Positions 896 through 26,132 of a stretch of DNA of 47,350 nt are shown piece by piece. Source of the stretch: a virus. The stretch's first letter is position 1. Each line of letters starts with the position of its first letter. The notes under the pieces are model-generated. The model saw only the letters and a program-made list of their open reading frames with translations. It made no database searches and was not told the origin of the DNA. The position numbers and the translations under genes are program-made. The stretch is taken from positions 1 through 47,350 of IMG/VR virus record IMGVR_UViG_3300036845_000499. One strand, 5' to 3'.

Positions 896-2515
896 TCAAG
901 CCGGGTACAGCGGCGAATCCTGACCGCCGCGGGGGTAGATTTTCTGCGATTCCAGGTCGGCTTCGCGTTCGGATTGGCGGACGAGCAGGCCCATGTCGCG
1001 GAGCTTGCGCAGGCCCATGGAGGTGAGATCTACAAATTCGTCATGCTTTCCTCGCGGATGCATAGCAACTTGCGTAATGACCTTCTCCATCCAGGGCCGA
1101 TCCGGTCCATGAATGATGCCTTCAGCAAACAGATGCTGCACGCTATATAGGCGCGCGGTCTTATCCTGACTCTTCGGGTCGAACAGTTCGACACCGAAGC
1201 GCTCGCGGTTATACAGACGTCGGATTTCCTGCGCGACACTGATACCCGACGCCTTGTTCTCGATGAGTAGTGAGTCGACCTTCATCTTGATACAGGTCTG
1301 TGCGACTTTCTCAACCAATTCGTGCAAGGCTAAGTGCGCGTCCCATGCCCACATGCACATCACCTGTGGCGCAAATTCAGAATAGGTCGCGTCGGGGCGA
1401 AAGGTCTGGCCATCCGGCCCAACGATGCGCGTCGTTTGTGACTTGACATCGCCTGAGAAGATGCCCCAAACGATCATGCCACTCGGATCGTTCATGGTAT
1501 CTTCCGTGTAGGCCGTATCCAAACAGGCCAACACGAAATCCATCGGTGGGTAACTATCCAACTCCCATAATTTCCACCATTCACGGAGGATTATTCCACC
1601 GCCCTTTGGCTCCGGCCTTTGCTGAATCTGCCCCGCGAACGTAAACGGCCCCATGCTTTTTTCGAGGCGCTTCAGGTACGGTTCGCTGAACCTTTCGGGC
1701 CACAGCAACTCGCCGGGTTCCGTGCGCGGGTCCTTCCAACCTATGGACGTGTGGAATGAACGTTCAGGCTCGTAACGACCCGGCAAACACAAATGCGTCC
1801 AGCCATCCGCCTCGTGTTCAAGGATGTGCCCCGTCAGATCATCTTCCCCGAGGCGCTGCTGAATGATGATAAACGCGCCGTGCTCCGGATCATTCAAACG
1901 CGTCGGCATGGCGGTCGTCCACCACGTTATGGTTGTTTCGGTGGTTGCCTCACTCTCGACATCATTCGCCGCGTTCGGATCATCTATACAGATGATGTTA
2001 CCGCCTTCGCCGGTGACGCCTGCGCCGATCGATGTGATGAGTCGGTCGCCGCCTTTGTCGTTAGAGAATCTGGACTTGGTGTTCTGGTCGTACGCGAGTT
2101 TGAACCTGTCTCCCCAGCGCGCCTGATACCACGGTGACTCGATCAGACGACGGCATTTGACGGAGTCACGCAATGAGAGTTTGTCGGCGTAGGACGCGTA
2201 CAGAAACGGCACGCCGGGGCCGCACGTTGGCGTGCCGTTCGGTTGCGCCCACGTCCAGGCCGGGAAGGCGACCGAGACCGTGTTCGATTTTCCGATGCGC
2301 GGCGGGCAATTGATGATCAGGCGTTTTATCTGACCGTCGACGACAGCCTGCAGATGCTCACATATCGCGTCGACCGCCCACGCGTCCTTCCACGCGGCCG
2401 GGTCAATATACTTCCAGGCGGATTTCAGGAATGTGTAGAGCGATTCCTCACAATCCGCACGGTCCAGATCCAACAGTTGCGCATCGCGGTCGATGTTGCC
2501 GGGAAGTTCGATCAT
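896..2515 (-). CDS. terL: Phage terminase large subunit (ATPase and nuclease)
   Basis: This is the motor and nuclease that drives DNA into proheads and cuts it. The N-terminal ATPase has a Walker A of the terminase type (NCPPRIGKSN, about residues 70-80) and a Walker B (NIICIDDP). The C-terminal RNase H-like nuclease shows spaced acidic clusters: FVLACLDTAY, SLLIENKASG and DEFVDLTSMG. At 539 residues it is typical for the family. I chose ATG 2515 because it forms an ATGA overlap with the small upstream gene and because the sequence before it reads as a separate protein in another frame. The small subunit lies three genes upstream on the same strand. The packaging mode (cos or headful) cannot be read from the sequence. 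Confidence 0.95.
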   Translation of the reverse strand: MIELPGNIDRDAQLLDLDRADCEESLYTFLKSAWKYIDPAAWKDAWAVDAICEHLQAVVDGQIKRLIINCPPRIGKSNTVSVAFPAWTWAQPNGTPTCGPGVPFLYASYADKLSLRDSVKCRRLIESPWYQARWGDRFKLAYDQNTKSRFSNDKGGDRLITSIGAGVTGEGGNIICIDDPNAANDVESEATTETTITWWTTAMPTRLNDPEHGAFIIIQQRLGEDDLTGHILEHEADGWTHLCLPGRYEPERSFHTSIGWKDPRTEPGELLWPERFSEPYLKRLEKSMGPFTFAGQIQQRPEPKGGGIILREWWKLWELDSYPPMDFVLACLDTAYTEDTMNDPSGMIVWGIFSGDVKSQTTRIVGPDGQTFRPDATYSEFAPQVMCMWAWDAHLALHELVEKVAQTCIKMKVDSLLIENKASGISVAQEIRRLYNRERFGVELFDPKSQDKTARLYSVQHLFAEGIIHGPDRPWMEKVITQVAMHPRGKHDEFVDLTSMGLRKLRDMGLLVRQSEREADLESQKIYPRGGQDSPLYPA

Positions 2516-2664
2516 GGAGGCGCAGGGACCGGCCGTGCACACCCCGCGCACACAAACCGGTTCTTTCCCGGCAGTCTGCAACCGGGCAACACCGGTCGGT
2601 ATTCCTTGCGGCGCTCGCAGCGGCGCAGGTGCCTCGTGATGTAGGTGGGCGGGTAGCCGGTCAC
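2512..2664 (-). CDS. 50-residue Cys-containing microprotein between terS and terL
   Basis: A GTG start overlaps the upstream stop (GTGA) and the stop overlaps the terminase ATG (ATGA), so this gene fills the gap between its neighbours exactly. The product is basic (RHLRRCERRKEYR) and carries four cysteines, the last pair as CAGC, consistent with a small zinc-binding fold. It ends in a proline-rich tail. I do not recognise it. A role as a terminase accessory is possible from position alone. Confidence 0.6.
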   Translation of the reverse strand: MTGYPPTYITRHLRRCERRKEYRPVLPGCRLPGKNRFVCAGCARPVPAPP

Positions 2665-2855
2665 TCGGTCGCCTCAGTCATCAGTCTGATTTTCTCGCGC
2701 GCCCGCTTGCCCACCTCAGTGACCTCGTGCTCGCAGGCCACGCACCACGCGCGCGCCGAAAGTTTACGAACGTAATGGCCGCAACAGTCGCAGCGGTAAT
2801 ACGGTTGCGTGCTACCGTTCTTCAGTAGCGGGTATGGGTCGTGAGTACCGGTCAC
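2661..2855 (-). CDS. Zinc-ribbon-like small protein, 64 aa
   Basis: A GTG start overlaps the small-terminase stop (GTGA). The protein has two paired-cysteine knuckles, CDCC near residue 22 and CVAC near residue 38, spaced as in a small zinc ribbon, followed by a charged helix (EVTEVGKRAREKIRLM). It may bind nucleic acid or a protein partner in packaging, but no family was recognised. It is coupled on both sides within the terminase block. Confidence 0.75.
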   Translation of the reverse strand: MTGTHDPYPLLKNGSTQPYYRCDCCGHYVRKLSARAWCVACEHEVTEVGKRAREKIRLMTEATE

Positions 2856-3463
2856 TCGGGCCCCTCGCCCGGCTGCAGGGGCTCCCCCTCGCCGCCGGCC
2901 TGCGCGTATTCGATCATCCGGCGCAGTTCCTGCCGTTGTTCGGCCGTCAACTTCGATGAGTCGATTACGTTCTTGGGCGCCTCCCGGTCGTCATTCACTT
3001 CCAGCTTCTGCGCCGGCGGTCGCCACTCCTGACCGCCGCGGCGGCTCAGGATGTCCATGCCTACCTTCGCGTTCGCCGGATCAGTCACTGACGTCCCGAT
3101 CCTGATCATGTTCGCCGCCACACTGGAGATCACTTCCGCGGTGCCCAACTCGTAGTCCGCGGCGTAGTGCATCTCCAGTGTGTGGATAGCGATCCCCAAA
3201 AGCCTGCAGGTCACAGATTTCCCCAACCCCAGCGCGCCGGCAGATTTCACCTGGGCTGCGAATACCGGCGAGGGATGCTCGCCTGCGGTTCTGAGTATTT
3301 CAACCCGTTGCTGATGTTCGCGCTCGATAGTTTCCATGCGCGTGCGCCAGAAGTTGGCGACGACTTCGCGCTCGTCGGCGGGGCGCAGGGACGGGTATTC
3401 CTCGACTTCGGCGGGCAGGATGGGGGGCTTGGGTTTGCGGCGTTTGCGGGGGGCGTCAGTCAT
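2852..3463 (-). CDS. terS: Phage terminase small subunit
   Basis: This subunit recognises phage DNA for packaging and partners with TerL. At 203 residues it has a basic, proline-rich N-terminus (RKRRKPKPPILP) and a central helix-turn-helix-like region (LGLGKSVTCRLLGIAIHTLEMHY). A long helical segment follows (GTAEVISSVAANMIRIGTS) with the 'ANAKVGMDILSRRGGQEWR' signature seen in small terminases that have a gcvR-like HTH. The C-terminal segment (SSKLTAEQRQELRRMIEYA) probably contacts the large subunit. ATG 3463 is preferred because the upstream extension reads as the coupled preceding gene in another frame. Family assignment is by resemblance and by position three genes before terL. Confidence 0.85.
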   Translation of the reverse strand: MTDAPRKRRKPKPPILPAEVEEYPSLRPADEREVVANFWRTRMETIEREHQQRVEILRTAGEHPSPVFAAQVKSAGALGLGKSVTCRLLGIAIHTLEMHYAADYELGTAEVISSVAANMIRIGTSVTDPANAKVGMDILSRRGGQEWRPPAQKLEVNDDREAPKNVIDSSKLTAEQRQELRRMIEYAQAGGEGEPLQPGEGPE

Positions 3464-3623
3464 AAATGCGGGGGAAAGCGATGCCGCTGCCGGCCGGTGT
3501 CCGCGCATCCTCACGCGGGTCGGACCACGAATATGACCCGAACGTCTCCGGGACTGTCGCGGCATGCCAGCATCGCTCCGTGCTTACAACACGGTTATTC
3601 CCCCTATCGCTGGGTGTATTCAC
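3456..3623 (-). CDS. 55-residue hypothetical protein before terS
   Basis: The GTG start at 3623 follows the previous stop by one base, with an AAAGG ribosome site nearby, and the gene's end overlaps the terS start by eight bases. The product (MNTPSDRGNN... ending PRIYD) is polar and aromatic (SYSWSDPRED) with no recognised domain. Coding support comes from the junction geometry and the absence of a better frame in the gap. It could be non-coding spacer, so confidence is modest. Confidence 0.45.
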   Translation of the reverse strand: MNTPSDRGNNRVVSTERCWHAATVPETFGSYSWSDPREDARTPAGSGIAFPRIYD

Positions 3624-25056: not shown

Positions 25057-25431
25057 ATGAACTATCCAAAAGAAGTACTCGAAGCGCTACAGCGCGACCA
25101 AGGCATCACGTTCCGTGGAAAGCACAACACTGATGCCCGATTCTGCTACGGCGCGACCTGCACGTGGTTCGGGTCGATCCATGAAACCAAATCGACGCCG
25201 GGTCCCCATGGAGGCATCCCCTGCTGCCCGCTCTGTGGCGGCGTGCTCTATGAATTGCCCGACGAGGGCGAATGGTGGGGCGGCATCGACGCCTACGAGA
25301 AGGAGGGACATCCCGACTACCGCGCGATGTGGGAATGGCAGCGCGGGCAGAAGAAGTGCTTCTCATCGCGCAACGGCATTGATGTGTTGGTCGCGGCGTA
25401 TCAATCTGCCGTGGGCAAGACAGCGCCATGA
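25057..25431 (+). CDS. Zinc-ribbon-containing hypothetical protein, 124 aa
   Basis: I choose ATG 25057 (MNYPKEVLEALQRDQ); ATG 25027 would overlap the upstream gene by 23 bases. The protein has CYGATCTWFGSI and CCPLCGGVLYELP, together a likely zinc site, and a helical C-terminal part. Such proteins are common in phages of proteobacteria but have no known function. Confidence 0.75.
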   Translation: MNYPKEVLEALQRDQGITFRGKHNTDARFCYGATCTWFGSIHETKSTPGPHGGIPCCPLCGGVLYELPDEGEWWGGIDAYEKEGHPDYRAMWEWQRGQKKCFSSRNGIDVLVAAYQSAVGKTAP

Positions 25432-25667
25432 TCAAGTATCTCTTCAGTGGCCATCTGACGCCTCGCCCAAAGGGCACGGAGCGAGCCATGTGCCAATTAA
25501 GCGGGGAGGTTTACTTAGCGACCGACGTGCAAGCTGAACTACGCGAGCGCGAGATGAACTACGGACGGGAGCAAGCACGCCTCAATGGCATCATTTCCAA
25601 ACACTTGGACACGATCAAGCGTTTGAGAAATCGACTCGCTGAACAGCACGGAGCGGAGCATGACTGA
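25428..25667 (+). CDS. Hypothetical protein with coiled-coil tail, 79 aa
   Basis: ATG 25428 overlaps the upstream stop. The N-terminal half has mixed structure (MIKYLFSGHLTPRPKGTERA); the C-terminal half is a charged coiled coil (NGIISKHLDTIKRLRNRLAE). It ends a few bases into the two-frame methyltransferase remnant. No family recognised. Confidence 0.7.
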   Translation: MIKYLFSGHLTPRPKGTERAMCQLSGEVYLATDVQAELREREMNYGREQARLNGIISKHLDTIKRLRNRLAEQHGAEHD

Positions 25668-26085
25668 TAGCGCCGGCTACAAACGGCGGATGATCTTTGG
25701 CCGGAAATGCGGCGAATCGTGGCAGAGGCAGCTCCCCGGTACGTATTTGCCGAGAACGTCTCGCGAGAGGCTATCGACGCCGCGGCGGACGACCTCGATG
25801 CGATGGGCTACCAAACCCGGTGCATTGCCCTTGCCGCGAAAGACTTGGGTGGTGACCACATTCGGAAGCGCTATTGGTTACGTGCACACGCCGACACGGA
25901 AATCGAACTACACGGCTCCGTCGATGCAGAAATGGAACAGTTGCAGAGCCTTCACGGAGGTCCTTGGCGAACCGACCCCCGAGATCCACGAATGGTTGAT
26001 GGATTGGCCCATCGGGTGGAGCGCCTTGAAGCCACTGGAGACGGGCAGGTTCCAATCGTGGCTGCAACAGCATGGCGCCTCCTAA
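25660..26085 (+). CDS. Frame A of a two-frame methyltransferase-like region, 141 aa
   Basis: ATG 25660 is coupled to the previous gene and preceded by CGGAGCGGAG. The first half is Arg/Thr/Pro-rich and looks like an alternative frame. The second half (YVHTPTRKSNYTAPSMQKWN ... EWLMDWPIGWSALKPLETGR) matches the C-terminal region of phage DNA methyltransferases, with the LM-x-WP-x-GW signature. The same DNA in frame B also encodes methyltransferase-type sequence. I cannot tell which, if either, is the product. See the finding on dual coding. Confidence 0.5.
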   Translation: MTDSAGYKRRMIFGRKCGESWQRQLPGTYLPRTSRERLSTPRRTTSMRWATKPGALPLPRKTWVVTTFGSAIGYVHTPTRKSNYTAPSMQKWNSCRAFTEVLGEPTPEIHEWLMDWPIGWSALKPLETGRFQSWLQQHGAS

Positions 26086-26132
26086 GTTCATCCCCTACAT
26101 CCACACCAGTTACAACCGGAGAATCGAAATGA
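25707..26132 (+). CDS. Frame B: truncated cytosine-5 DNA methyltransferase, 141 aa
   Basis: Frame B (codon phase one base before frame A) reads as the C-terminal half of a Dcm-type enzyme. It has LWPEM at the start (open upstream to a stop at 25668), then the ENV motif (RYVFAENVSR), a motif VIII-like GGDHIRKRYWLRAHAD, and a motif X-like end GDGQVPIVAATAW. The SAM-binding and PC catalytic motifs (I and IV), normally upstream, are absent, so it cannot be active alone. ATG 25707 lacks a good ribosome site. It is probably a remnant or part of a frameshifted product. Confidence 0.55.
   Translation: MRRIVAEAAPRYVFAENVSREAIDAAADDLDAMGYQTRCIALAAKDLGGDHIRKRYWLRAHADTEIELHGSVDAEMEQLQSLHGGPWRTDPRDPRMVDGLAHRVERLEATGDGQVPIVAATAWRLLSSSPTSTPVTTGESK

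Follow-up and report, generated by a model that had tools for sequence, protein, structure and literature searches.

M.EcoHK31I is a C5-cytosine methyltransferase of two polypeptides with the site YGGCCR, and its small polypeptide is said (Lee, Kam and Shaw, 1995) to be encoded in another frame inside the gene for the large one. The large polypeptide carries motifs I-VIII and X along with a predicted target-recognition domain, and the small one only motif IX (PMC3404938). M.AquI is likewise a two-polypeptide C5 methyltransferase, the smaller subunit of which has both motif IX and motif X (PMC3404938). In ShiLan, an out-of-frame HNH insertion in phage methylases represents a homing element within the gene (PMC11855218).

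The DNA analysed here (the window) is a stretch of 47,350 nucleotides of phage DNA, encoding a terminase, a primase/helicase and exonuclease VIII, in which two overlapping frames, designated A and B, resemble phage C5 methyltransferases. As in M.EcoHK31I, frame B of the phage genes has motifs I-VIII and X, while motif IX is proposed to lie in a second polypeptide (frame A); unlike in M.EcoHK31I, these are phage genes whose two frames mostly run almost end to end from starts 4 nt apart, and the window copy is without its catalytic half. The phage genes also differ from M.AquI, as their motif X is part of the catalytic chain. ShiLan is likewise a case of alternate-frame coding in a phage methylase, but frame A has no HNH match (no HNH family was found in it by profile search) and belongs to the enzyme's own region. 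The phage C5 methyltransferases of PHROG 363 and PF00145 include frame B of the window and of its relatives; the second frame is not covered by these models, and the window has the 3' half only. The architecture is a wide phage variant of the known two-polypeptide kind and the window copy is a fragment of it. No report of a general two-frame arrangement was found in a partial search of the literature.

It is likely, in our judgement, that the window contains the 3' half of a C5-cytosine methyltransferase gene that codes in two frames, that the A and B chains of intact copies form one enzyme, and that a deletion took the catalytic half. One stretch of DNA in the intact gene would give rise to two polypeptides with starts usually 4 nt apart. 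Frame B would encode the catalytic polypeptide (SAM binding, PC, ENV, motif VIII and motif X), while frame A would encode a second polypeptide whose conserved C-terminal part is the putative target-recognition/motif-IX region, and by analogy with M.EcoHK31I the two chains would assemble into one enzyme. In the window, the deletion would have removed the catalytic half, leaving a remnant predicted to be inactive alone as a methyltransferase.

The two frames of the window

The initial annotation, which was made from the sequence of the window, described two open methyltransferase-like frames overlapping for more than 370 bases. Both frames were confirmed at that location (Table 1); they share 415 nt and A lies +1 relative to B.

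Table 1. Coordinates of features at the two-frame locus of the window
Feature	Position	Strand	Description
Upstream ORF	25428-25667	+	Last 8 bases overlap the start of frame A; no relatives found
Frame A, stop-to-stop open span	25627-26085		
Frame A ORF	25660-26085	+	141 aa; 3' half of the polypeptide in the alternative frame; its ATG lies shortly before the junction
Junction	25665-25681	+	About 250 bases (motifs I-IV) missing compared with intact relatives
TAG preceding frame B	25668-25670		
Frame B open frame	25671-26132	+	3' half of the C5-cytosine methyltransferase frame, with the ENV, motif VIII and motif X regions
Dual-coded stretch	25681-26085	+	Both frames homologous to the 3' half of intact phage genes
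Frame B, first ATG	25707		Stop at 26132
Frame B, ENV motif	25752-25760	+	Conserved alignment columns
Frame B, DHIRKRYW	25854-25877	+	Motif VIII region (alignment)
Frame A, HTPT motif	25885-25896	+	Invariant across the aligned family
Frame A, EWLMDWPIGW	25990-26019	+	Family form EWLMGWPxGW; proposed motif IX (alignment; position before motif X in Filuzino)
Frame B, GDGQVP	26037-26054	+	Motif X region (alignment)

Frame B of the window was found to match PHROG 363 (E 9e-22) and the Pfam family DNA_methylase PF00145 (E 1.2e-6; 28.6 bits, with a cut-off of 22). As the PF00145 match covers model positions 86-177 only, frame B is a fragment from which the first ~85 positions, including the SAM and PC motifs, are missing. 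The SAM-binding/catalytic 5' half was absent throughout the 47,350-nt window when searched for with both protein and DNA profiles, and the SAM-binding and catalytic PC motifs were found neither at the locus nor elsewhere in the window. The lack of these motifs from frame B and the loss of its 5' part had been correctly noted in the initial annotation. Because the catalytic half is absent, the window copy cannot work alone as a methyltransferase. Family-like sequence had also been thought to begin at the stop at 25668; recognisable homology was instead found to begin sharply at 25681 (nhmmer), and homology extending upstream of this position was ruled out by the DNA profile. Between positions 25681 and 25751 the DNA of the window hardly differs from the consensus of many phages, as is expected where LWPEMRRIV and FGRKCGESWQ are both fixed.

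Frame A of the window matched PHROG 26627 (E 1e-10) and PHROG 35493 (E 1e-9), both of unknown function, while nothing convincing was found in Pfam. When either frame was used as a tblastn query, the same overlapping place was reached in Pseudomonas, Klebsiella and Vibrio phages, so that homologues of both frames were recovered, at the same place in other phages. In Pseudomonas phage PS-1 the match to frame A (60%, 165 bits) exceeded that to frame B (54%, 138 bits). The PHROG 1008 profile, which is named DNA methyltransferase, matches frame A proteins and not the catalytic frame.

Architecture and constraint in intact relatives

A total of 125 related loci was assembled from two scans of viral contigs (one per frame) and from phage records. 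Frames A and B overlap by at least 600 nt in 117 of the 125, and in 79 of the 80 loci that were found by frame B alone, the remaining locus being limited by a contig end. Intact frame B begins MNELALFAGAGGG, carries GGFPCQ, ENV, the motif VIII region and GNGQVP, and is a C5-cytosine methyltransferase with motifs I-VIII and X; the PF00145/dcm match extends across the N-terminal half of this large polypeptide and is followed by GNGQVP. The second polypeptide is read from a different frame of this gene and has its own start, usually 4 nt after the B start and inside the same start region (ATGAATGAG); its C-terminal signature is TPTxxAN...EWLMGWPxGW.

The number of stops in each frame was compared with that expected from a codon permutation which keeps the B protein and B's own codon set. 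Among 59 non-redundant genes, 3 stops were observed in frame A compared to 234 expected, while the third frame contained 688 compared to 692 expected. The largest neighbouring ORFs at the same loci, which served as the control, contained 399 stops (394 expected) and none was stop-free. Among 48 close relatives, frame A had no stops in the 5' half (63.5 expected) and a single stop in the 3' half (115.9 expected). The open frame A in this family is well beyond chance. Both a random open frame and a simple frameshift were rejected by the permutation with its neighbour-gene controls.

Mean identity in the 3' half (after DLWPEM) was 0.596 for frame B, 0.581 for frame A and 0.450 for the unused third frame, while the corresponding values in the 5' half were 0.72, 0.42 and 0.41. 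In the 3' half, the third positions of frame B varied no more than the first (0.351 vs 0.360), whereas in the 5' half third positions were the fastest (0.515 vs 0.248 at first positions). Taken together, the identities and the codon-position pattern indicate that the 3' half specifies two constrained proteins, and the 5' half one constrained protein and one that is open but loosely constrained. The check proposed with the initial annotation, which looked to homologues of both frames and to the placing of substitutions in frame B, came out for dual coding, both frames having homologues and the third positions of B in the 3' half being no more variable than the first; the genes of this family are dual-coding.

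A decaying gene and a frameshifted product had been put forward initially as explanations of the two frames. Loss of the 5' half agrees with the former, but the overlap does not, as both frames are open end to end in intact relatives. In the stricter form of this explanation, an ordinary single-frame gene is decaying and indels have left family-like peptides in two frames; the missing 5' half and the existence of relics in Bradyrhizobium and Variovorax (see below) are in its favour, but with both frames open throughout in the intact relatives, and with the window frames collinear with A and B of the intact genes, it is extremely improbable. As an account of the two frames decay is refuted, while it holds for the missing 5' half.

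The frameshifted product did not hold up, as frame A of the relatives has its own ATG, in most cases four bases beyond the start of B. Programmed +1 frameshifting from B, by which A would be reached as an alternative C-terminus of one protein, would fit the +1 position of A, and a switch from B to A after motif VIII would mimic the order seen in the Filuzino protein described below. It is nevertheless considered highly improbable, since A is open from its own ATG at the gene start, which would be needless for an internal frameshift, and since an upstream MSW/MAW-type frame A start is still seen in three loci (L066, L089 and L102) in which the B start has moved. With both frames open in intact relatives, and with A starting there from an ATG of its own, the overlap is an ancestral feature and not a frameshift scar.

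Relationship of frame A to the methyltransferase

Two loci were identified in which the A domain is not overlapped with the methyltransferase but joined to it. In L127 (IMG/VR; 2501-3511) a complete B-like methyltransferase through motif X is followed in frame by an A domain (ETWIKKENGIGFGFVHTPTTMANY...EWLMGFPIG), which was matched by the A profile (hhalign; 99.7%, E 7e-27), and in L005 (MT837127; 748-1743) the A domain likewise lies in the same frame behind a complete B-like methyltransferase, without overlap. In addition, mycobacteriophage Filuzino encodes a single polypeptide of 537 aa that contains methyltransferase motifs, TPTxxD repeats and EWMMGWPAGW, followed by CGNGVCPQQAY; the match of the A profile to this monomer (E 8e-17) ends just before motif X. 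On most intact B proteins, the PF00145 match stops near model position 160-180 of 324, which is the end of motif VIII.

The large domain of B matches M.HaeIII and M.HhaI. An AlphaFold model of the fused L127 protein (mean pLDDT 71.6) had low confidence for the A domain, and a Foldseek search with it verified no more than the methyltransferase fold of frame B, leaving the A domain unplaced; the model of window frame A alone (mean pLDDT 53.6) was too poor for use. There was no match for the A profile among PDB sequences, and when Filuzino was compared with the PDB only its N-terminal part aligned, so that motif IX was tied to no solved structure.

The in-frame fusion of the A domain with the methyltransferase in L127 and L005, and its place before motif X in Filuzino, make it most likely that frame A encodes the motif-IX/target-recognition part of this very enzyme, motif IX being assigned by position and resemblance. 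Overprinting with a second protein retained had been another of the initial suggestions, of which the overprinting was upheld while an unrelated protein was not. For frame A to be an unrelated protein overprinted de novo, such as a regulator or an anti-defence factor, would be consistent with the lack of any matching Pfam or NCBIfam family and with a 5' half that is unconstrained in sequence, but is very unlikely in view of the fused proteins and of the order of domains in Filuzino.

State of the window copy and breadth of the arrangement

What survives of the gene in the window is the half in which both frames are constrained. Among alignment columns that at least 90% of relatives conserve, window B was changed at 0 of 43 and window A at 4 of 40 (rank 41 of 49); overall rates of the window copy were typical, and when identity and codon-position differences were regressed to look for relaxed selection along the branch of the window, |z| stayed below 1.4 throughout, which favours neither frame as the one in use. 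With no changes in B, 4 of 40 in A and typical rates, neither frame has visibly decayed, and the loss appears to be recent, or is an assembly error. The most likely state of the window copy, on the sequence evidence, is that of an inactive remnant left by a recent deletion, in which frame A could still be expressed from the ATG at 25660.

The deletion was seen in a single contig, no relatives of the ORFs on either side were found in viral contigs by which the junction might be confirmed, and frame B is without decay, all of which would also be consistent with an artefact of metagenome assembly, the gene of the real phage being intact. This is regarded as quite unlikely, as the junction comes with a ribosome site in a good position and with the kind of compact gene overlap that is usual in this region: GGAG is located at 25650-25653, six bases before the frame A ATG, with another GGAG at 25655-25658.

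The same ribosome site, together with the overlap of frame A with the stop of the upstream ORF, would be expected if frame A had been kept as a stand-alone protein after loss of the enzyme, either as a partner for another methyltransferase or in a new role. Window A also begins almost exactly where the constrained region of A begins in relatives, and the only ATG of frame B (25707) has a poor upstream context. Retention of A alone in the window phage is possible, but unlikely: it is frame A and not frame B that has changed at conserved columns, no comparable truncated copy was found among the 125 related loci besides those at contig ends, and no second methyltransferase half was found in the window. 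The comparison gives no support to such retention. It is likewise doubtful that a broad clade of phage C5 methyltransferases (with hosts ranging from Pseudomonas, Vibrio and Klebsiella to Paenibacillus, Mycobacterium and Synechococcus) has, as a general and mostly overlooked trait, full-length dual coding of the two subunits of one enzyme, and that the window phage also kept the second-frame subunit on a new start after deletion of the catalytic half.

The same nesting as in the intact relatives was observed in Synechococcus phage S-H1, Mycobacterium phage Rhynn, phages of Rhodobacter, Bacteroides, Lacticaseibacillus and Paenibacillus, and a Paenibacillus plasmid; six loci came from a bacterial genome scan. 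Nested A/B pairs, which are intact, unlike that of the window, are also formed by ORF31/ORF30 ('Mte8-like') of Escherichia phage K1G and by gp49/gp50 of Paenibacillus phage Diva (gp50 being annotated 'g49 internal gene'), and in both records the inner gene is listed with no part in the enzyme assigned to it. Most records annotate a single frame, which is sometimes the non-catalytic one, and the two-frame arrangement seems to be much more frequent in phages than the annotations suggest. In Pseudomonas phage PMG1 (L143:1083-1916, 1132-1893), the ORF annotated 'DNA methyltransferase' is frame A, while the catalytic frame B ORF is unannotated.

The sequence statistics suggest that two-frame coding is common in phage C5 methyltransferases. 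To have two parts of one enzyme overwritten in the same DNA would be an extreme form of gene compression. Methyltransferases cloned from one-frame annotations might miss half the enzyme, and specificity predicted from frame B on its own would leave the proposed target-recognition part out of account. The family is also a rich natural data set for dual-frame selection, and one in which overlapping genes can be seen separating (L127 and L005) or sitting in one frame (Filuzino).

A number of variant loci were also observed. A stand-alone frame-A-like ORF (WPTPMASG...NPAWIECMMGFPEGWT) lies, without overlap, just downstream of the dual-frame gene on a Paenibacillus bovis plasmid (L132:2411-2812). 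Of the two relics, that in Bradyrhizobium (L138:2614-3240) has A and B pieces joined in one frame, and that in Variovorax (L139:2737-3711) is split by an insertion that contains HNH-like sequence. In Brucella daejeonensis (L137:2845-3201) the full-length frame A ORF is replaced by a short internal one, and in two loci (L042 and L043) frame B is broken by an in-frame stop while frame A is intact across 251 codons.
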